Position numbers and translations under genes: made by a program. 64,000 nucleotides of DNA, from assembly GCF_001509835.1 (NCBI RefSeq), contig NZ_JXTJ01000011.1, positions 62,001 to 126,000 of the forward strand, written 5' to 3'. The notes below the pieces were generated by a model, which made no database searches, had not been told where the DNA came from, and saw nothing but the letters and a program-made list of their open reading frames with translations. The stretch is from Allobosea sp. WAO (GTDB lineage Bacteria; Pseudomonadota; Alphaproteobacteria; Rhizobiales; Beijerinckiaceae). Positions 54,555 to 63,701 of this stretch are shown here, one piece after another (the stretch's first letter is position 1; each line of letters starts with the position of its first letter).

Positions 54555-55120
54555 CGATGCTTCCTCCGAGCTAGTGAGCGTCTCCCTGGAAAAAAGGCCC
54601 GCAATCGGCTGGCCTGGGCCGAAATCGTTGTTCGGCCGAACGATTATTATGCGACTGCCCAAGTATGCGCAACATCGTTTCGTCGCGATCTCGATCGACG
54701 ATTGCATGGAGAAGATCTGCATGCCTTTAGGTCATAATCTGTTTAGGTCGCCTGGTATTCAGATCATTGTTGATGATGGCGAGAAGACGTCCAGCAACAG
54801 GATCGACTTCTGGATGAAGCGCGAAGAGGACCGATGAGGTCGGCTGACAGCTGATAGGTGGCTGAGGCCTTTGCGATCTCGGAGACGTGTTTGCCGGCCG
54901 TATGGCTGTCTTCGCGGTTGGCTCCGGCGGCGGCATGATCGCGCCCTGATCCCCGAACTGATCGATCCGCCCCTCCCTCAGTATGTCTCTCGGCAGAACA
55001 GCGTGGACGAAGGGCTTGAAGAGACTGCAAGGCTCCGGGATCACTGTTACGGTCGCCGCGTCAACCGCCACGGCCCGATCGGAAGCCGGGAATTCAACGC
55101 ATCTTCGGGGGCCGAGTGCC
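54555..55120. other. Intergenic region between PQQ dehydrogenase gene and mgsA
   Basis: 566 bases with lower GC than the surroundings around 54620-54780. No credible intact gene. On the minus strand between about 54990 and 54730, two frames read in succession (SEIAKASATYQLSADL, then EVDPVAGRLLAII) in a way that recalls the C-terminal end of a chemotaxis receptor, possibly a decayed remnant. The promoter of the PQQ dehydrogenase gene should lie in the A/T-richer part near 54600-54700. Confidence 0.35.
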
Positions 55121-55513
55121 ATGACTCTCACGATCGGTATGGTGGCCCATGACAGGAAGAAGGCCGACCTGGCTGCCTGGGCCGAACAGCACGCTGACTT
55201 GATCGAACATCACACCATCGTCGCGACCGCGACGACCGGAGGTATTCTCAGATCCGCCTTGCCCAATCTTGCCATTCGCCTCGTCAAGAGCGGGCCGCTC
55301 GGTGGCGACCAGCAGATCGGCGCCATGATTGCCCAAGGAGAGCTGGACGCGCTCCTGTTCTTTCCCGATCCACTCGCCGCCCAGCCTCACGACGTCGATG
55401 TCAAAGCGCTGCTCAGGCTGGTGCTGGTGTATGATGTCCCCGCAGCGTTCAGCCCCAGCACGGCGAGTGCTCTGGCTCGGTCAGGTCTTTTTGATCGACA
55501 GCCCACCGCCTGA
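55121..55513 (+). CDS. mgsA: Methylglyoxal synthase
   Basis: Converts dihydroxyacetone phosphate to methylglyoxal and phosphate, an overflow route out of glycolysis. 130 residues with IGMVAHDRKKADLAAW, ATATTGGIL, the family signature GPLGGDQQIGAMIAQGELD and FFPDPLAAQPHDVDVKALLRL. It is shorter than the E. coli enzyme, mostly at the C-terminus, but within the family range. ATG at 55121; the ribosome binding site is weak. No partner genes are adjacent. Confidence 0.92.
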   Translation: MTLTIGMVAHDRKKADLAAWAEQHADLIEHHTIVATATTGGILRSALPNLAIRLVKSGPLGGDQQIGAMIAQGELDALLFFPDPLAAQPHDVDVKALLRLVLVYDVPAAFSPSTASALARSGLFDRQPTA

Positions 55514-55746: not shown

Positions 55747-56583
55747 TTAGACAGGTGCGAGCCCCAGCATTGCCCGCGCCTCTGCCGGCGTCGCGGCGCG
55801 CGCGCCATGCCGGCCGATCGCCTCGACGGCCATCTCGACCAGTTCGGCATTGCCGGAGGCCAGCCGGTCCTTGGCGGCGCGGATATTGTCCTCCATCCCG
55901 GTCCGGACGGCACTTGCTCCGCGGGCCAGCGCCCACTCCATCACCCGCATCTGCTCGCGCCCGATGCCGGCGGCGGTCCAGCTCGCGCCGGGAATGACCC
56001 GCTTCGTCTCGGCGAGCAGGATGTCGAGCAGCACCTCATCGGCCGGCATCGCGTTCTTGACGCCCATCACGAACTGGATGTGTGGACGCGGTCCGATCAG
56101 CCCCTCATCGACGAGGCGGCGCGCTGCGTGGATATGCGACAGGTCGAAGATCTCGATCTCGGGGGCGATACCGTGCTCCTGCATCCGCGCCGCCAGATCG
56201 CTCACCAGGCTCGTCGGGTTCTCGTAGACGATGGTCGGGAAATTCACCGAGCCGGTCGAGAGCGAGGCCATGTCGGGGCGGTGCACCAGGGAGAGGCCAC
56301 GCGCCGCCGGATCGCGTCCCCGGCCGCCGGTCGAGAACTGGATGATCATCCCCGGGCAGGCTTCGCGAATCCCGGCCTGGACCTCGGCAAAGCGGTCCGG
56401 ATCGGAGGAGGGTGTCTCGTCGTCATTGCGGACATGGATGTGGACGAGGCTGGCGCCTGCCTCGAAGGCCGCGCGGGTCGAGGCGATCTGCTCGGCCGGC
56501 AGCACGGGCAGGTTGGGATTGTCCTTCTTGCGCGGCACGGAGCCGGTGATGGCGACGGCCACCACGACGGGACGCTTGCTCAT
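55747..56583 (-). CDS. BKACE-family beta-keto acid cleavage enzyme
   Basis: 278 residues of the DUF849/Kce family. These zinc enzymes condense a beta-keto acid with acetyl-CoA and split it into acetoacetate and a new acyl-CoA. The zinc motif VHIHVRND (His48, His50), QFSTGGRGRD and NFPTIVYEN are visible. It is the last gene of catB-catC-catA-benD-this gene, 8 bases after benD. In this setting the likely substrate is 3-oxoadipate, giving succinyl-CoA; the window has no pcaI, pcaJ or pcaF. ATG at 56581-56583. Confidence 0.88.
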   Translation of the reverse strand: MSKRPVVVAVAITGSVPRKKDNPNLPVLPAEQIASTRAAFEAGASLVHIHVRNDDETPSSDPDRFAEVQAGIREACPGMIIQFSTGGRGRDPAARGLSLVHRPDMASLSTGSVNFPTIVYENPTSLVSDLAARMQEHGIAPEIEIFDLSHIHAARRLVDEGLIGPRPHIQFVMGVKNAMPADEVLLDILLAETKRVIPGASWTAAGIGREQMRVMEWALARGASAVRTGMEDNIRAAKDRLASGNAELVEMAVEAIGRHGARAATPAEARAMLGLAPV

Positions 56584-56591
56584 GATCACTG

Positions 56592-57395
56592 TCACCCCTG
56601 GTCGCCGCCGCCGGCCGGCAGCACCGTTCCATTGATATAGGACGCATCGTCGGAAGCCAGGAACAGGATCGCTGCGGCGATCTCCTTCAGCTCGCCATAG
56701 CGACCGAGATGTGAGGCACGCAGGGTCTGGTCGACGACCTCCTGCATCCACTGCTTGTCCGCTTCGGTCTGAGCGTCGGTCCCCCGCGGGATCCGGCGCG
56801 GCGGCGCTGTCACGCCGCCCGGAGCGACGGCATTGACGCGGATGTTCGTTCCGGCGAGCTCGAAGGCGAGCGATGCCGTCAGCGCGTTCACGCCGCCCTT
56901 GGCCGCCGAATAGGGAATGCGGTTAATCCCTTTGGTCGCGATCGAGGAGACGTTGACGATGGCGCCGCGGCCCTGGGTCTGCATATAGGGCAGCACCGCC
57001 CGGCAGCCCCACAGCGTCGGGAACAGCGAGCGGTTGATCTCCGCGACGATCTGGCGTTCGTCGAATTCCTGGAAAGGCCGCATCCAGATCGCGCCGCCGA
57101 TATTCGTCACCAGCACGTCGATGGCGCCAAAATTCTCCTTGGCGCGTGCCATCACCTTTTCGTTCCCGGCGAAGGTCTCAAGATCCTCTTCGAGCGCGAC
57201 GACGCGTTCGGCGCCGTAGGCCGAGGCGATCTCCTGCGCGACCTCCTGGATGATCGCCGAGCGATCGACGATCGTCAGCCTGGCTCCCTCGGCCGCCGCG
57301 TCGAGCGCCACCTGCTTGCCGACGCCCTGCGCGGCACCGGTGACGATGAGGCTGCGTCCTTCGAACCGGCCGGCGCGGGAGGATTGCAAAGCCAT
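56592..57395 (-). CDS. benD: Benzoate cis-diol dehydrogenase BenD (SDR)
   Basis: Oxidises 1,6-dihydroxycyclohexa-2,4-diene-1-carboxylate to catechol with NAD and loss of CO2. 267 residues, classical SDR: TGAAQGVGKQVA, NIGGAIW, NVSSIATKG and YSAAK. The stretches RSLFPTLWGC and APPRRIPRG, plus the SYINGTVLPAGGGD end, are those of BenD/XylL. The dioxygenase genes benABC are not in the window. It lies between catA (130 bases upstream) and the BKACE gene. Confidence 0.85.
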   Translation of the reverse strand: MALQSSRAGRFEGRSLIVTGAAQGVGKQVALDAAAEGARLTIVDRSAIIQEVAQEIASAYGAERVVALEEDLETFAGNEKVMARAKENFGAIDVLVTNIGGAIWMRPFQEFDERQIVAEINRSLFPTLWGCRAVLPYMQTQGRGAIVNVSSIATKGINRIPYSAAKGGVNALTASLAFELAGTNIRVNAVAPGGVTAPPRRIPRGTDAQTEADKQWMQEVVDQTLRASHLGRYGELKEIAAAILFLASDDASYINGTVLPAGGGDQG

Positions 57396-57525
57396 GGCGT
57401 ATCTCCGGAAAATGGCTGCCGTGAAGGCAAGTATCTGGCGAGGCTATTCATGCGGCCGGCGGCGCAAAGGGGCTGGCCCCTCGCACCGCTGGCGTCTTCC
57501 GTCGCGGCCTCTGAAGGCGAAGGCG

Positions 57526-58455
57526 TCAGCCGGCCGTGACGTGGGCGCGGCTGACCACGGTCTGCGGCACGTCCGCGCGCTCCTTCGTCAGCACGACATC
57601 GAAGGTCGTGCGGGCGAACGGGCGGTTGAGCCCGGCATTGCGGATGGCATCGGCGTCGACGACACGGTCGAGCGTGACGACGAGTTCCTCACGCGTGCCG
57701 AAGGCGAAGTCCGTGTAGAGATACTTGTCGCCGGTGAAGTTGAACTGCGTCGTCAGCTGGCGGTGTCCGGGTGCCGAGATGAAGTAATGGACATGGGCCG
57801 GGCGTTCCGCGTGCCGGCCGAGGGCTGTCATCAGCTGGCGCGTCGCGCTCTCGGGCGGGCAGCCATAGCCGTTGGGAACGATGGTCTGGGCGCGGTAGCG
57901 GCCCTGCTCGTCCGTCTCGATGCGGCGGCGCAGATTGTAGGGCGCCTGCTCGCCGTCGATGAAGGAATAGCCGCCCTTGGAGTTGGCGTGCCAGATGTCG
58001 ACGATCGCGCCGGCTATCGGCTTGCCGTCCTCATCCGAAACCTGGCCCTCGATGATGAAGACTTCGCCGGGGTCGGTGCCGTCATCCATGCGCGCTTCGC
58101 CCTTGGAAAGCGGTGCGTCCGGCACGTAGAGCGGCCCTTCGATGGTCCGCATCGTGCCGCCGTTGAGGCCGGCAAGCCGCTCGGCTTCATCGAGCCGCAG
58201 ATCGAGGAAATGCTCGAGCGCGGTGCCCGGGACGAGCAGGCCGAGCTCCTCGTTCTTCGCTGCCTTGCCGATGAAGGCGACAGCGGCCCAGAACTCGTCC
58301 ATCGAGACGTCGCACTCATCGATCACCTGCATGAGCCGGTAGAGCAGCTGGGCGGTGACTTCCTTGGTCCGGGCATCGCCCTTGTCGCTGTCGATGCCGG
58401 CCGCACTGTTGGCGAGATTCTTCTTGTCCGCGTCGGAGATCAGATTGGTGGGCAT
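57526..58455 (-). CDS. catA: Catechol 1,2-dioxygenase
   Basis: Intradiol ring cleavage of catechol to cis,cis-muconate with Fe(III). 309 residues. Iron ligands: Tyr163 (KGGYSF), Tyr197 (NGYGCP), His221 and His223 (RPAHVHYFI). An N-terminal helical dimer domain (residues 1-100) precedes the beta-sandwich. ATG at 58453-58455, giving MPTNLISDADKK. Middle gene of the catB-catC-catA-benD-BKACE operon; 56 bases after catC. Confidence 0.95.
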   Translation of the reverse strand: MPTNLISDADKKNLANSAAGIDSDKGDARTKEVTAQLLYRLMQVIDECDVSMDEFWAAVAFIGKAAKNEELGLLVPGTALEHFLDLRLDEAERLAGLNGGTMRTIEGPLYVPDAPLSKGEARMDDGTDPGEVFIIEGQVSDEDGKPIAGAIVDIWHANSKGGYSFIDGEQAPYNLRRRIETDEQGRYRAQTIVPNGYGCPPESATRQLMTALGRHAERPAHVHYFISAPGHRQLTTQFNFTGDKYLYTDFAFGTREELVVTLDRVVDADAIRNAGLNRPFARTTFDVVLTKERADVPQTVVSRAHVTAG

Positions 58456-58511
58456 GGCGTTTCCTCGTTCTTTGATTGTTGGCGGGCATTCGCGAAGGGA
58501 TCGCGGCGTTC

Positions 58512-58802
58512 CTATCGGTCGTCGTCGCGGACGGATGAGGGGTGGCGGCAAAGCGCCGTGACCTTCACGTCCATGAAGGGGAAGAGGGGCAGGCCGGAGA
58601 GGATGTCGTGCAGGGCCTGCGGGCTCTCGACATCGAAGACGCTGGTGTTGGCATAGCGCCCGGCATGACGCCAGAGATGCCGCCAAATGCCGGCCCGCTG
58701 CAGCTCCTGGGCGCGCTCGCGCTCCGCCGCCTTCAGCGCATTCGCCGTCTCCGCGGGCAGATCGTGCGGGATCCGGACATCCATTTCGACTTGAAAGATC
58801 AT
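58512..58802 (-). CDS. catC: Muconolactone delta-isomerase
   Basis: Converts muconolactone to 3-oxoadipate enol-lactone. 96 residues, ferredoxin-like fold, forming a decamer in known cases. It has the family start MIFQVEMDVRIPHDLP, the AQELQRAGIWRHLWRHAGRY segment and FDVESPQALHDILSGLPLFP. ATG at 58800-58802, four bases after the catB stop, so they are coupled. Length is normal. Confidence 0.95.
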   Translation of the reverse strand: MIFQVEMDVRIPHDLPAETANALKAAERERAQELQRAGIWRHLWRHAGRYANTSVFDVESPQALHDILSGLPLFPFMDVKVTALCRHPSSVRDDDR

Positions 58803-58806
58803 CGGT

Positions 58807-59979
58807 TCAGGATCCCATCTTGGCGCGCGGCAGCACATGGAGCGAAGGCTCGGCGCGGTCGCGCCGGAACCGGTTCAGCTGGGTCTCGGACAAAGTGACG
58901 CCGAGACCCGGCCCGGTCGGCACGGCGAGGCCGAAATCGGCATAGTCGAGCGGCGTCTCGAGAATTTCTTCGGTCAGCAGCAAGGGGCCGAAGAGCTCGG
59001 TGCCCCATTCCAGCTTGCCGATGGTCGAGAACAGATGGGCCGAGGCAGCGGTGCCGATGCCGCCTTCCAGCATGGTCCCGCCATAGAGCCCGATGCCGGC
59101 CGCCTCGGCGATCGCCGCCACTTTGGCCGCGGCGAAGAGGCCGCCGGACTGCTCGATCTTCAGCGCGAAGACATCGGCGCCCGCCTGGGTCGCGATGGCG
59201 AATGCGGTTTCGGGGCCGTTCAGGGCCTCATCGGCCATGATCGCGACCGGCGTCTCGCGGGCCAGCCGGGCGAGGGCGCCAAGATTGCGCAGCGCGACCG
59301 GCTGCTCGATCAGCTCGACGCCGGCGGCGGCCAGCGCCGGCAGCATGGCCGAGGCAGTCGCTTCCGACCAGGCCTGGTTGATGTCGACCCGCACCGAGGC
59401 GCGGTGGCCGAGCGCCCGCTTGATCGCGGCGACATGGGCGACATTCGCGGCCGGGTCGCCCTTGCCGATTTTCAGCTTGAAGATGTTGTGGCGGCGGCGC
59501 GCCAGCATCTCCTCGGCTTCCTCGATGTCGCGCCCGGTATCGCCGCTGGCGAGGGTCCAGGCCACGGGCAGCCGGTCGTGCTGGCGGCCGCCGAGGAGCT
59601 CGGAAATCGGCAGGCCGACACGCTGGCCGAGAGCATCGAGCAGTGCCGTCTCGACCGCGCATTTCGCGAAGTGGTTGCCCTGCACCGAGGTCGCGATGGT
59701 CGCCATCGTCCTGGCTACGCGATTGGGATCGCTGGCGAGTAGGATCGGCGCGAAATAGGCGTCGATGGCGAGCTTCATGCCTTCGGGGCTCTCGGGGCCA
59801 TAGGCGAGGCCGCCGATCGTGGTACCTTCGCCGGTGCCGACGAGGCCGTCCGACATATGCAGCCGCACGATCATCAGCGTCTGGCGGTGCATGGTCGTCA
59901 TCGCCAGCTGGTGCGGGCGGATGGTCGGCAGATCGACCAGAATCGTCTCGACCTGTTGAATCCGCGGGCCTTCAGACAC
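58807..59979 (-). CDS. catB: Muconate cycloisomerase
   Basis: Lactonises cis,cis-muconate to muconolactone, manganese-dependent, enolase superfamily. 390 residues with the catalytic KLK pair (Lys168, Lys170), metal ligands Asp199 (VDIN), Glu225 (LIEQPV) and Asp250 (MADEAL), and Lys274 (LKIEQSGG). GTG at 59977-59979 with GGGAGCG upstream. First gene of its operon; the 41-bp promoter/operator copy lies at 60031-60071. Confidence 0.94.
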   Translation of the reverse strand: MSEGPRIQQVETILVDLPTIRPHQLAMTTMHRQTLMIVRLHMSDGLVGTGEGTTIGGLAYGPESPEGMKLAIDAYFAPILLASDPNRVARTMATIATSVQGNHFAKCAVETALLDALGQRVGLPISELLGGRQHDRLPVAWTLASGDTGRDIEEAEEMLARRRHNIFKLKIGKGDPAANVAHVAAIKRALGHRASVRVDINQAWSEATASAMLPALAAAGVELIEQPVALRNLGALARLARETPVAIMADEALNGPETAFAIATQAGADVFALKIEQSGGLFAAAKVAAIAEAAGIGLYGGTMLEGGIGTAASAHLFSTIGKLEWGTELFGPLLLTEEILETPLDYADFGLAVPTGPGLGVTLSETQLNRFRRDRAEPSLHVLPRAKMGS

Positions 59980-60030
59980 GTTTCGCTCCCATATTCATTG
60001 CCGAAAAGGCTAGGGCGCAGGGTCCGCGAA

Positions 60031-60071
60031 GGACAGGATCGATTGGGTGTATTTTTATACCCGAAGGGTAT
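60031..60071 (-). promoter_or_regulatory. CatR-type operator/promoter of catB (copy 1 of a 41-bp element)
   Basis: On plus it begins GGACAGGATCG and ends ATACCCGAAGGGTAT (60057-60071), a T-N11-A LysR palindrome, with GGTGTA-N4-TATACC overlapping it. It matches 62621-62661 in 33 of 41 bases without a gap. The layout, recognition site then activation site then core promoter, faces catB, whose start is 52 bases away. Confidence 0.7.
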
Positions 60072-60136
60072 GGAGGCGGCTGGCAGGCCAGTTGGTCCGG
60101 GCGCGATCGCATGAGGCGTTACGTCGCCGCCCGGCC

Positions 60137-60177
60137 AAAGAAAAAGGACGCGGCCGGCCTTTCGGGCGGTCGCGTCC
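60137..60177 (-). terminator. Intrinsic terminator after the aromatic-acid transporter gene
   Basis: On minus: stem GGACGCG...CGCGTCC (60171-60177 with 60146-60152, extended by a few inner pairs), then TTTTTCTTT. It ends the pcaD-transporter transcript 50 bases after the stop and isolates it from the catB promoter. Confidence 0.85.
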
Positions 60178-60225
60178 GTGATCGTTGTCGCCGCTGCGTC
60201 TATGCCGCGCGCAGCACTATGGAGC

Positions 60226-61596
60226 CTATCGGGCGGCCGGGGCGGCGGCCGCTGGCGCGGCTGCGGTCGCGATAGCGCCGGCCGTGCTCCGCACCGTCAG
60301 TGTCGCGAGCGCCGCGATCACCAGCGGAATGGCCAGGGTCATGAAGTAGCCCGACGGCCCGGCGGTCGAAAGCAGCGTCCCGCCGATCGCTGAGCCGACG
60401 ATCGCTCCCGAACGCCCGACGCCGATGCCCCAGCCGGTCGCCGTGGCGCGAAGCTGCGTCGGATAGGTGTTCGAGATCAGGTAGTTCAGCACGAGCTGCT
60501 GGCCGCCGATGCCGAAGCCGGCAAGCGCGATCAGGGCGAAGACCACCGGCCAGCGGTCGCCCGCGAAGCCCAGTCCGAGCGCGACCGCGATTCCGACGGC
60601 GAACATGCCGATCAGGAGCTTGCGCGGGTCGACTTTCGGGAGGAAGGACGACAGCGGCAGGGCCATGGTGATGAAGGCGGCGTTGACGACGACGGTGCCG
60701 TAGGCGGCCTGGGCCTTTTCGAGGCCGAGCGTGGTCAGCGCGGTCGGCAGCCACTGCAGCAGCAGGAACCAGGCGATCCAGTTGAACAGATAGATCGCCG
60801 AGATCGCGATGGTGACATTGCGATAGCCGGACTCGAACAGGCCGGCGATCGACCCGCCATTCGAGACCTTGCCGGCGCTGACGAGCCGCACATGGTCGGG
60901 GATCGCCTGGCCGGTCATCTGGCGGAGCAGGCGGCGCGCCTCGTCCTGGCCGTCATTCTGCTTGCGCGAGACGAGATAGGCGGGCGATTCCGGCAGCAGG
61001 AAATAGGTCACGACCATCAGCGCGAGCGGCAGGATGCCGCCGATCAGGAAGATGCCGCGCCAGCCCATGACGGGCAGCCAGCTCGCGGCGATCAGACCGC
61101 CGAGCATGGCGCCGGCAGGCAGGCCGAGCAGCACGCCGGTGATCATCATGCCGCGCTTGGAGGCCGGGCTGTATTCACCGGTCAGCGCCAGCAGCGAAGG
61201 CGTCGCTCCGCCCATGCCGAGGCCGATCAGGAAGCGCAGCACGATGATCTGCGTCGGCGAGGTGGCGTAGGCGCCCATCAGCGAGAACACGCCGAACAGG
61301 AAGATCGCGATCAGGATCGCCTTGCGACGGCCATAGCGGTCGCCGAAGCTGCCGAGGCCGATCGCGCCAAGCGTCATGCCGATGGTGCTGGCGGTGATGA
61401 CCCAGGTCATGTCGGAGGGCTTCATGCCGAAATCCTGCGCGATCGCAGGTCCGATGAAGGCGATCGACTGGGTATCGAAACCGTCGAGCAGGGCGATGAT
61501 GAAGCAGAGACCGACGACCGCCCAGCGGCGGCCGGTCATCGTGCCTTCGTCGATGATGGTCTTGATATCTCTGGTGCTGGCGGGTGGGCTGGACAT
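60226..61596 (-). CDS. MFS aromatic acid:H+ symporter (AAHS family)
   Basis: 456 residues, twelve predicted membrane helices. The AAHS signature LDGFDTQSIAFIGPAI lies in the first helix (the DGFD acidic residue is needed for aromatic acid uptake), and GSFGDRYGRRKAI is the MFS loop motif. Relatives carry benzoate, 4-hydroxybenzoate, muconate and others. It follows pcaD after 33 bases and is ended by its own terminator. It probably brings in the aromatic acid, or muconate, degraded by the cat genes. Confidence 0.9.
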   Translation of the reverse strand: MSSPPASTRDIKTIIDEGTMTGRRWAVVGLCFIIALLDGFDTQSIAFIGPAIAQDFGMKPSDMTWVITASTIGMTLGAIGLGSFGDRYGRRKAILIAIFLFGVFSLMGAYATSPTQIIVLRFLIGLGMGGATPSLLALTGEYSPASKRGMMITGVLLGLPAGAMLGGLIAASWLPVMGWRGIFLIGGILPLALMVVTYFLLPESPAYLVSRKQNDGQDEARRLLRQMTGQAIPDHVRLVSAGKVSNGGSIAGLFESGYRNVTIAISAIYLFNWIAWFLLLQWLPTALTTLGLEKAQAAYGTVVVNAAFITMALPLSSFLPKVDPRKLLIGMFAVGIAVALGLGFAGDRWPVVFALIALAGFGIGGQQLVLNYLISNTYPTQLRATATGWGIGVGRSGAIVGSAIGGTLLSTAGPSGYFMTLAIPLVIAALATLTVRSTAGAIATAAAPAAAAPAAR

Positions 61597-61629: not shown

Positions 61630-62415
61630 TTAGGCGGTGAGATCGCGGCGCAGCTCGGCGACGACGTGCTCGGGCTGCTCGACGGCGAGCAGATGCGCGG
61701 CGGGCGAAAGCACGACGAGGCGGGAGCCGGCGATGCCGGTGTGCAGGGCCTGCGCCATTTCGACGGGCGTCGCGGGATCCTCGCGGCCGGCGATCACGGT
61801 CGTCGGGGTGTCGATCCGGTGCAGCAGCGGGCGCAGATCCATGCGGCCGATCGCCTCGCAGCAGGCCGCGTAGCCGTCACGGTCGATGGTCCGGAACTCT
61901 TCAGCCACCTTGCCGGCGACCTCGGGACGGCTGTCGCGGAAGCCCGCGGTGAACCAGCGCTGCATCGTCGCTGTGAGGATCGCCTGCGTGCCCTCGCGCC
62001 GCACCAGCGCGGCGCGTTCCTCCCAGACCTCGCGCGTCGGCATGCAGGCTGCCGTCGCCATCAGGGTCAGGCCGGCGAGGCGCGCCGGGTGCCGGATGGC
62101 GAAGGCCTGACCGGTCATGCCTCCTAGCGAGAGCCCGGCGAGATGAACGCGCGCGAGATCGAGATGGTCGAGCAGCGCGGCGAGATCATCGGCGAGGTCG
62201 GCGATCTCGAAAGGCTTGGAGCCGCCGCTGGAGCCGCCATGGCCGCGCGTATCGTAGCGCACGCAGCGATACTCGGCGGAGAGTTCGCCGACGACGGCGT
62301 CCCACATCCGGTGAGTGGTGCCGAGCGAATTGGAGAAGACGACGGCGGGAGCACTGCCCGGCCCGGTGACCGTGTAGAACAGGCGCACGCCCGAGCCGGT
62401 TTCGACATAGGGCAT
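61630..62415 (-). CDS. pcaD: 3-oxoadipate enol-lactonase
   Basis: Hydrolyses 3-oxoadipate enol-lactone to 3-oxoadipate. 261 residues, alpha/beta hydrolase. The nucleophile Ser96 is in AGLSLGGM, the oxyanion segment FSNSLGTTHRMWD and the RYDTRGHGGSS region are those of PcaD, and the catalytic Asp and His follow (GREDPATP, SPAAHL). First gene of pcaD-transporter. The second 41-bp operator copy lies about 206 bases upstream. Confidence 0.93.
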   Translation of the reverse strand: MPYVETGSGVRLFYTVTGPGSAPAVVFSNSLGTTHRMWDAVVGELSAEYRCVRYDTRGHGGSSGGSKPFEIADLADDLAALLDHLDLARVHLAGLSLGGMTGQAFAIRHPARLAGLTLMATAACMPTREVWEERAALVRREGTQAILTATMQRWFTAGFRDSRPEVAGKVAEEFRTIDRDGYAACCEAIGRMDLRPLLHRIDTPTTVIAGREDPATPVEMAQALHTGIAGSRLVVLSPAAHLLAVEQPEHVVAELRRDLTA

Positions 62416-62798: not shown

Positions 62799-63701
62799 AT
62801 GGATCTGCGCCATCTGCGCTATTTCACCACCGTTGCGGCGGAGGGCTCGTTCAGCCGGGCCGCCGAGAAGCTCAACATCGCCCAGCCGCCGCTGAGCCGG
62901 CAGATCCAGCAGCTGGAGGAAGAGCTCGGCGTGCGCCTGCTCGATCGCGGCCGGCCGATAACGATGACCGAGGCCGGGCGTTATCTCTTCGACCAGGGAC
63001 TGCAGGTGCTGCAGCGCGTCGAGGAGATGCGGGCCATGACCACGCGCATCGGCAAGCGCATGGTGCTCCAGTTCAACATCGGCTTCGTCGCCTCGACACT
63101 CTACGACACGCTGCCCGAGCTGATCCGCGATTTCCGCATCCTGGCGCCGGATGTCGAGGTCCAGCTCCTCGAGATGACGACGCTGGAGCAGATCTCGGCG
63201 CTGAAAGATGGCCGCATCGATGTCGGCTTCGGGCGCCTGCGCTTCGACGACGAGGCGCTGGTGCGCGCCGTGTTGCGCGAGGAGGGGCTGTGCGTCGCGG
63301 TCAGCTCGTCTCATGCGCTGCTGAAAGGAGGCAGCAGGCCGAAGCTGGCCGATCTCGAGGCGGAGCCGCTGATCCTGTATCCGAAGGCGCCGCGGCCGAG
63401 CTATGCCGACCAGGTCCTGGCCTTCTATCGCGAGGCTGGGGTGACGCCGCGCATCGGCATGGAGGTGCGCGACGTCCAGACTGCGCTTGGCCTCGTGGCC
63501 TCCGGTGTCGGCATCTGCGTCGTTCCGGCATCGGTGCGGCGCTTCGGGCGCGACGACGTCCATTTCCTCGATCTCGACGAGGCGTTCTCCAGCCCGATCA
63601 TCGTCAGCTACCGCAAGAACGACACCGCGCCGTTGCTGCGTCAGATCATCGCCCTGGCAGGTCTGGGGCAGTCATCATCGCAGGCTCTCCCGCGTGTTTG
63701 A
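62799..63701 (+). CDS. LysR-family regulator of the catechol genes (CatR/CatM-like)
   Basis: 300 residues. N-terminal helix-turn-helix MDLRHLRYFTTVAAEGSFSR / AAEKLNIAQPPLSRQIQQLE is of the CatR/BenM/CatM type, followed by the effector domain with SALKDGRIDVGFGRL. Known relatives sense cis,cis-muconate. ATG at 62799 with GCAGGAGCAGG upstream. It is divergent from pcaD; the two 41-bp sites upstream of pcaD and catB are its likely targets. Confidence 0.88.
   Translation: MDLRHLRYFTTVAAEGSFSRAAEKLNIAQPPLSRQIQQLEEELGVRLLDRGRPITMTEAGRYLFDQGLQVLQRVEEMRAMTTRIGKRMVLQFNIGFVASTLYDTLPELIRDFRILAPDVEVQLLEMTTLEQISALKDGRIDVGFGRLRFDDEALVRAVLREEGLCVAVSSSHALLKGGSRPKLADLEAEPLILYPKAPRPSYADQVLAFYREAGVTPRIGMEVRDVQTALGLVASGVGICVVPASVRRFGRDDVHFLDLDEAFSSPIIVSYRKNDTAPLLRQIIALAGLGQSSSQALPRV

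Follow-up and report, generated by a model that had tools for sequence, protein, structure and literature searches.

A BKACE gene at the end of an alphaproteobacterial catechol operon as a candidate for 3-oxoadipate cleavage

The window analyzed here, a stretch of 64,000 nucleotides from Allobosea sp. WAO, contains a catechol operon, catB-catC-catA-benD, that ends with a gene of the BKACE family, and is a clean alphaproteobacterial case of this arrangement. Family membership, gene order and comparison with relatives suggest that the encoded enzyme cleaves 3-oxoadipate in the catechol branch of the beta-ketoadipate pathway, a reading to which we assign a probability of about 0.85. An earlier interpretation of the same DNA, made without database searches (the sequence-only reading), had proposed that the BKACE may replace PcaIJ and PcaF and provide a shortened end to the pathway. 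Replacement is plausible for the catechol branch only.

By the known BKACE chemistry, the zinc-dependent enzyme would let 3-oxoadipate react with acetyl-CoA: carbons 1-2 of 3-oxoadipate would pass to acetyl-CoA and yield acetoacetate, and carbons 3-6 would be released as succinyl-CoA. Acetoacetate and succinyl-CoA would then be converted to acetoacetyl-CoA and succinate, probably by a ScoAB-like transferase encoded on contig C9, and a general thiolase would turn acetoacetyl-CoA into two acetyl-CoA. The canonical enzymes, PcaIJ/CatIJ and PcaF/CatF, act on the same substrate with the same net balance once acetoacetate is recycled, but they do so by CoA transfer and thiolysis, whereas the BKACE would carry out a one-step acetyl-CoA-dependent cleavage without 3-oxoadipyl-CoA. 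Calculated by hand from textbook reactions, the net sum of both routes is 3-oxoadipate + CoA to succinate + acetyl-CoA. As the re-activation of acetoacetate gives the same net balance as PcaIJ and PcaF, the BKACE route is another path but not a shorter one, unless acetoacetate goes elsewhere, such as into polyhydroxybutyrate. The shortened end is therefore doubtful, and as an energetic gain it is ruled out by the identical stoichiometry.

The BKACE protein

The BKACE gene (55747-56583, minus strand) has an ATG start and encodes 278 residues. The product passes the NCBIfam equivalog NF053568, "3-oxoadipate:acetyl-CoA acetyltransferase", with 439.3 bits (cut-off 350), which speaks for the predicted action on 3-oxoadipate, and matches PF05853 (DUF849, COG3246) over its full length with 304.5 bits (gathering score 24.8). 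Its closest solved structures, 3no5, 3chv and 3fa5, carry no function in their names. The zinc motif pointed out in the sequence-only reading is present: HxH...E is kept as H48, H50 and E231 (counted from the ATG of the 278-residue protein; the alignment numbering begins one residue earlier), at positions conserved in 95% or more of 129 aligned sequences. As in Kce, the enzyme of lysine fermentation, these three residues are the presumed metal ligands. In comparison with 128 relatives, the window protein deviates in only 1 of 84 near-invariant columns, by a conservative change from L to M. The ratios of nonsynonymous to synonymous substitution (dN/dS) against the orthologues in G009, a second species of the genus, are 0.18 for BKACE, 0.20 for catB, 0.18 for catC, 0.28 for benD, 0.30 for catA and 0.44 for the pcaD pair. 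Judged from its sequence, the BKACE gene is intact and under purifying selection like catB.

The catechol operon and its counterparts

The genes of the operon lie on the minus strand in the order that the sequence-only reading had given. Upstream of BKACE, with exactly 8 bases between stop codon and ATG, lies benD for benzoate diol dehydrogenase (56592-57395; NF040811, 403 bits, cut-off 380). It is preceded by catA for catechol 1,2-dioxygenase (57526-58455; TIGR02439, 383 bits, just under the cut-off of 392; PF00775, 218 bits, far above the Pfam dioxygenase cut-off), catC for muconolactone isomerase (58512-58802; TIGR03221, 147 bits, cut-off 131) and catB for muconate cycloisomerase (58807-59979; TIGR02534, 548 bits, cut-off 335). 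On the same strand follow an aromatic-acid type transporter of the major facilitator superfamily (MFS; 60226-61596; TIGR00895, 291 bits, under the cut-off of 419; PF07690, 193 bits) and pcaD/catD for 3-oxoadipate enol-lactonase (61630-62415; TIGR02427, 276 bits, cut-off 256). A divergent LysR regulator of the CatM/BenM kind (62799-63701, plus strand) has CatM (NF040710) and BenM (NF040709) as its best models, both below cut-off. The cat genes and pcaD can be assigned to the conversion of catechol to 3-oxoadipate, as had been claimed. BKACE would be the built-in last step of a self-contained and presumably co-transcribed catechol set, with catB-catC-catA, an enol-lactonase of its own and a transporter. 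Visual inspection of the 246-base gap ahead of catB (59980-60225) shows an inverted repeat rich in G+C with T's behind it, given which catB may be the start of its own transcript. A scan for promoters and terminators gave no hit there and was uninformative.

Relatives of catB occur in 3 of 61 surveyed genomes (E <= 1e-60) and in 3 of a class-wide sample of 385 (E <= 1e-80), with the genome of the window, G000, in both, which makes five clusters in total. Their comparison shows that the gene order recurs in relatives. In G009 the order is catB-catC-catA-benA-benB-benC-benD-BKACE, and it is identical in G415, from another alphaproteobacterial family; the window has this order minus benABC. G007 carries catBCA-benABCD without BKACE at this place, and has an NF053568 copy elsewhere and a PcaF beside paaA, also elsewhere. 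In G386, pcaI-pcaJ-pcaF-pcaD is divergent from catBCA. Outside the two samples, we found benABCD-catA-catB-catC-MFS-BKACE in Paracraurococcus ruber and catA-benABCD-MFS-BKACE on a plasmid of Cupriavidus sp. P-10, whose BKACE is about 56% identical to that of the window and whose benABC genes, missing in the window, are intact. Rhizobiales 2SD has its BKACE outside the cat cluster, at a distance of about 5 kb.

The loss of benABC bears on the source of catechol. In the window, catA is directly followed by benD, without benABC in between (57396-57525), the place that these genes occupy in G009, G007 and G415. Searched genome-wide, benA of G009 gave a single match, of 29 bits over 55 residues. 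The reference proteins used for benABC exceed the cut-offs of BenA, BenB and BenC. Since benA is absent and benD is orphaned in this genome, benzoate is not an obvious substrate. The orphaned benD is still conserved, as its dN/dS value indicates. A flavin-monooxygenase-like gene (by eye) accompanies the cat clusters in G007, G009 and 2SD; the G000 stretches searched for it, a part of that genome, gave no match.

Exchange of pathway endings and spread of the subfamily

The strongest genomic sign that BKACE can replace pcaF, pcaI and pcaJ comes from the protocatechuate clusters of the genus, where the genes after pcaG appear to have been exchanged. In G003, G005, G014 and G036, pcaD-pcaC-pcaH-pcaG is followed by BKACE, and in G002 and G023 pcaF-pcaI-pcaJ stands at the same position. 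G024 has BKACE after the same four genes, and then pcaI- and pcaJ-like genes.

The NF053568 cut-off is exceeded in 28 of the 61 surveyed genomes, in 21 of the 37 genomes of the genus, and in 23 of the 385 class-wide genomes (E <= 1e-90). Among the 28, BKACE lies in a cat operon in two (G000, G009), beside pcaHG in 10, in a hydroxyquinol setting in one (G057), and beside no reference gene in 15. For a broader view we labelled 129 loci by pathway genes within 7 kb (pcaB was not used for labels). The set is not random, being composed of the 80 best of one relatives search, the 28 from the survey of 61 genomes, and 21 fetched in addition. Pathway genes were near 43 of these loci: pcaH and/or pcaG at 33, cat genes at five, genes of the hydroxyquinol route at four, and pcaIJF at one. 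All of these routes pass through 3-oxoadipate. In G057, BKACE follows a hydroxyquinol-dioxygenase gene, and a maleylacetate-reductase gene lies 8 kb away; the hydroxyquinol names were checked against solved structures by PDB matches.

A different BKACE subfamily is found in a similar place on contig C11 of G008 (L225:6500-9132), after a hydroxyquinol-1,2-dioxygenase-like gene with 1tmx as best PDB match. This BKACE reaches 173 bits to NF053568, and its best model is Kce, with 239 bits against a cut-off of 382. By coordinates, similar pairs of a BKACE and a hydroxyquinol-dioxygenase-like gene are present in G003, G013 and G020. The substrate of the G008-type enzyme could be another beta-keto diacid of the hydroxyquinol pathway.

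A quick maximum-likelihood tree with 131 rows pairs the BKACE proteins of the window and of G009 (SH-aLRT 95). The nearest pca-linked relative of this pair is the enzyme of Methylobacterium nonmethylotrophicum (78% identity; SH-aLRT 86, not a starred branch), where the gene order is pcaH-pcaG-BKACE-pcaB-pcaD-pcaC, and all three fall into a clade of 24 rows with SH-aLRT 100. The label "cat" requires four changes on the tree, at least two of which are forced by starred branches; one of the five "cat" rows is 2SD, where BKACE is only near the cluster. This implies that BKACE joined cat clusters more than once.

Thiolases, CoA-transferases and protocatechuate genes in the rest of the genome

The genome, 6.1 Mb in 42 contigs, is rated 100% complete, and the window lies on its contig C3. 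The sequence-only reading had noted that neither pcaIJ nor pcaF is present in the window, and this absence is real, since none of the CoA-transferases (PF01144) or PcaF-model thiolases found by the whole-genome searches lies on contig C3. Genome-wide, the PcaF model gives five full-length matches, none of them over the cut-off; the best has 394 of the 597 bits and passes the BktB subfamily model. CoA-transferases are encoded by pairs on C9, C40 and C7, and by a single gene on C42 (530 residues).

The pair on C40 belongs to a locus pcaI-pcaJ-pcaH-pcaG (pcaH 373 bits, cut-off 296; pcaG 233 bits, cut-off 126) that contains no pcaF and faces a divergent regulator of the PcaR/PcaU family (326 bits, cut-off 285; L021:5190-8962). 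The name PcaIJ for this pair rests on Pfam CoA_trans (57 and 143 bits), on identity and on gene order; none of the NCBIfam models matches at E 1e-20. The subunits are 73 and 76% identical (73.6% for the first in a second measurement) to a pair from Sinorhizobium meliloti that precedes pcaF behind a pcaR-like gene, and that belongs to the genes reportedly shown to be pcaIJF in this species. Within the genus, G051 and one of the G028 copies also have pcaF behind a C40-type pair. The idea that the cell has no pcaIJ is therefore ruled out, and the proposed replacement of PcaIJ and PcaF stands only in part: the genome has no PcaF equivalog, but it does have a Sinorhizobium-type pcaIJ beside pcaHG.

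Further protocatechuate genes lie on one strand of C1, namely pcaB (384 bits, cut-off 356), a dehydratase-like gene, a second pcaD (316 bits, cut-off 256) and pcaC (168 bits, cut-off 156). The same cell thus seems to have a separate protocatechuate branch, encoded apart on C40 and C1, that would use a CoA-transferase and an enol-lactonase of its own. This speaks against a genome-wide replacement of PcaIJ/PcaF.

The C9 pair passes the joint PcaI/ScoA and PcaJ/ScoB models. These do not split PcaIJ from ScoAB, and the best PDB matches are SCOT subunits (3cdk for the first); we therefore do not count the pair as a second PcaIJ and regard it as a putative ScoAB. Neither subunit of the C7 pair, which adjoins a thiolase, matches an NCBIfam family at E 1e-40. 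The three other BKACE paralogues of the genome had no match to a reference pathway gene within their stretches of 15 kb.

Each of the 37 genomes of the genus holds at least one of BKACE, C40-type PcaIJ and a thiolase over the PcaF cut-off. C40-type PcaIJ is found in none of the eight genus genomes with BKACE beside pcaHG. That PcaIJ and PcaF clearly exclude each other: PcaF is present in 1 of the 17 genomes with the pair and in 18 of the 20 without it, so that 16 of the 17 have no PcaF over the cut-off (15 if a G028 fragment at a contig end counts). In these counts, made from genome lists compiled by hand, the pcaF fragments of G003 (to model position 325 of 400) and G028 (cut by the contig end) were taken as absent, though taking them as present leaves the conclusions as they are, and PcaF matches include thiolases of phenylacetate clusters (G005, G007). 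In C40-type genomes without PcaF, the last protocatechuate step is probably carried out by an unrecognised thiolase.

Evidence against the proposed role and alternative explanations

Several observations weigh against a role of the BKACE in 3-oxoadipate cleavage or against a strict replacement of PcaIJ and PcaF. By the thresholds used, 86 of the 129 loci stand apart from any pathway gene, so that other roles in the subfamily may exist. BKACE is clustered with pcaIJF in Marinobacterium sedimentorum (L281) and Acetobacter fallax (L283), and with pcaF, but no visible pcaIJ, in a metagenome-assembled Nitratireductor genome (L242). G005, one of the genomes with BKACE behind pcaHG, also has pcaF-pcaI-pcaJ elsewhere. 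Within the genus, PcaF is not significantly more often missing where BKACE is present (it is lacking in 12 of 21 genomes with BKACE and in 6 of 16 without; Fisher p = 0.32, and again 0.32 when the two sub-cut-off fragments are counted as present). Five genomes (G010, G011, G019, G032, G035) have pcaIJ-pcaHG with neither PcaF nor NF053568 BKACE over the cut-off, and other thiolases presumably finish the route there. The residues near the metal site vary, with GASAVRTG in the clade of the window, GADAVRTG in near kin and GGH-xRTG in more distant rows. Finally, the genome of the window itself has the pcaIJ pair on C40.

That the subfamily so often stands alone would fit a BKACE unconnected with the operon, such as a Kce of lysine fermentation, that came to lie behind benD by chance. 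We consider this highly improbable, as the lysine-Kce model gives the window protein 244 bits, far under its cut-off of 382, the spacing to benD is only 8 bases, and a similar gene order occurs in four other genomes. Unlikely as well is a different substrate, be it a substituted 3-oxoadipate or some other beta-keto diacid, as might be supposed with benABC lost. The absence of benA from the genome, the clade-specific change next to the metal site, and the branch of the window BKACE, which is longer than that of its G009 orthologue (0.34 vs 0.12), would be in line with such a shift. However, the change at the metal site is shared with the pca-linked Methylobacterium enzyme, the near-invariant columns are altered in a single, conservative position, and catB and catC are above their family cut-offs.

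The C40 pair raises a different question, namely whether catechol-derived 3-oxoadipate is mainly processed by this PcaIJ and a general thiolase, with BKACE as an accessory or overflow route. We regard this as a serious possibility, if a doubtful one. PcaIJ on C40 is present and conserved (dN/dS against G009 of 0.16 and 0.20), and together with another thiolase it could cover for BKACE. That another thiolase can serve is presumably the case in the 16 of 17 genus genomes with C40-type pcaIJ and no PcaF over the cut-off, including the five without NF053568 BKACE. In Roseovarius nubinhibens, according to PMC12442348, pcaF inactivation had no observable effect on growth, and its authors attribute the step to beta-oxidation thiolases. 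Against a main flux through PcaIJ speaks that the C40 genes lie beside pcaHG and a PcaR/PcaU-family regulator, on a different contig from the cat operon, that the catechol gene set has its own enol-lactonase and BKACE, and that no thiolase of the genome exceeds the PcaF cut-off.

Neighbouring genes

A methylglyoxal synthase gene (54983-55513, plus strand; NF003559, 159 bits, cut-off 84; TIGR00160, 139 bits, cut-off 147) is convergent with the BKACE end of the operon. Between 49298 and 54722 lie pqqB and pqqC on the plus strand, and pqqE and pqqD on the minus strand, each above its NCBIfam cut-off; they are followed by a small gene that by eye resembles a c-type cytochrome gene, and by a PQQ-dehydrogenase-like gene that stays under its cut-off.

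Discussion

Neither the chemistry nor the idea is new, and the window enzyme is a further example of a proposed bypass. According to citing papers, Bastard et al. in 2014 provided the substrate data for the BKACE family. Of these substrates, beta-ketoadipate is assigned to group G3 in Table 7 of PMC4922564 and to group G4, as a prediction, in PMC8963497 (2022). For the catechol branch, PMC6449761 (2019) predicts that a COG3246 gene of Ralstonia eutropha (Cupriavidus necator) H16 belongs to the CatM/BenM regulon, together with catA-benABCD and catBCD, and suggests a beta-ketoadipate cleavage enzyme in catechol metabolism. This predicted regulon is that of a betaproteobacterium; the window has catBCA-benD-BKACE and lacks benABC. 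For the protocatechuate branch, PMC8963497 describes Methylobacterium pca clusters without pcaIJF and with DUF849, and raises the possibility of replacement. PMC12379598 (2025) calls the DUF849 gene kce and reports that M. extorquens PA1 with pcaHGBL, kce and van genes of M. nodulans grows on protocatechuate; its locus tags imply the order pcaH-pcaG-kce-pcaB-pcaL in M. nodulans. These Methylobacterium enzymes (of the Mnod_2085 kind) belong to the same subfamily as the window BKACE, a likeness measured on the M. nonmethylotrophicum enzyme, and their clusters also have no pcaIJF, but they serve the protocatechuate, not the catechol, branch. PMC12442348 adds that Roseovarius grows without pcaF, and that a pcaI-deficient strain consumed 4-hydroxybenzoate poorly, which counts against BKACE sufficing there, if the strain has BKACE. 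The prior-art passages contain no knock-out or assay of the published BKACE prediction.

Together, our data suggest a model, with about even chances of being right as a whole, in which the two branches no longer share their ending. Catechol would be degraded via BKACE to acetoacetate, and protocatechuate via PcaIJ and a thiolase other than PcaF; the dedicated PcaF would have been lost, and cat clusters would have gained BKACE more than once. The genus offers a natural comparison, as its pca clusters end in three ways, with BKACE, with pcaFIJ, or with pcaIJ and no pcaF, and makes the published prediction easy to test genetically. For annotation, the case is a warning that the absence of pcaF or pcaIJ does not imply a broken pathway.

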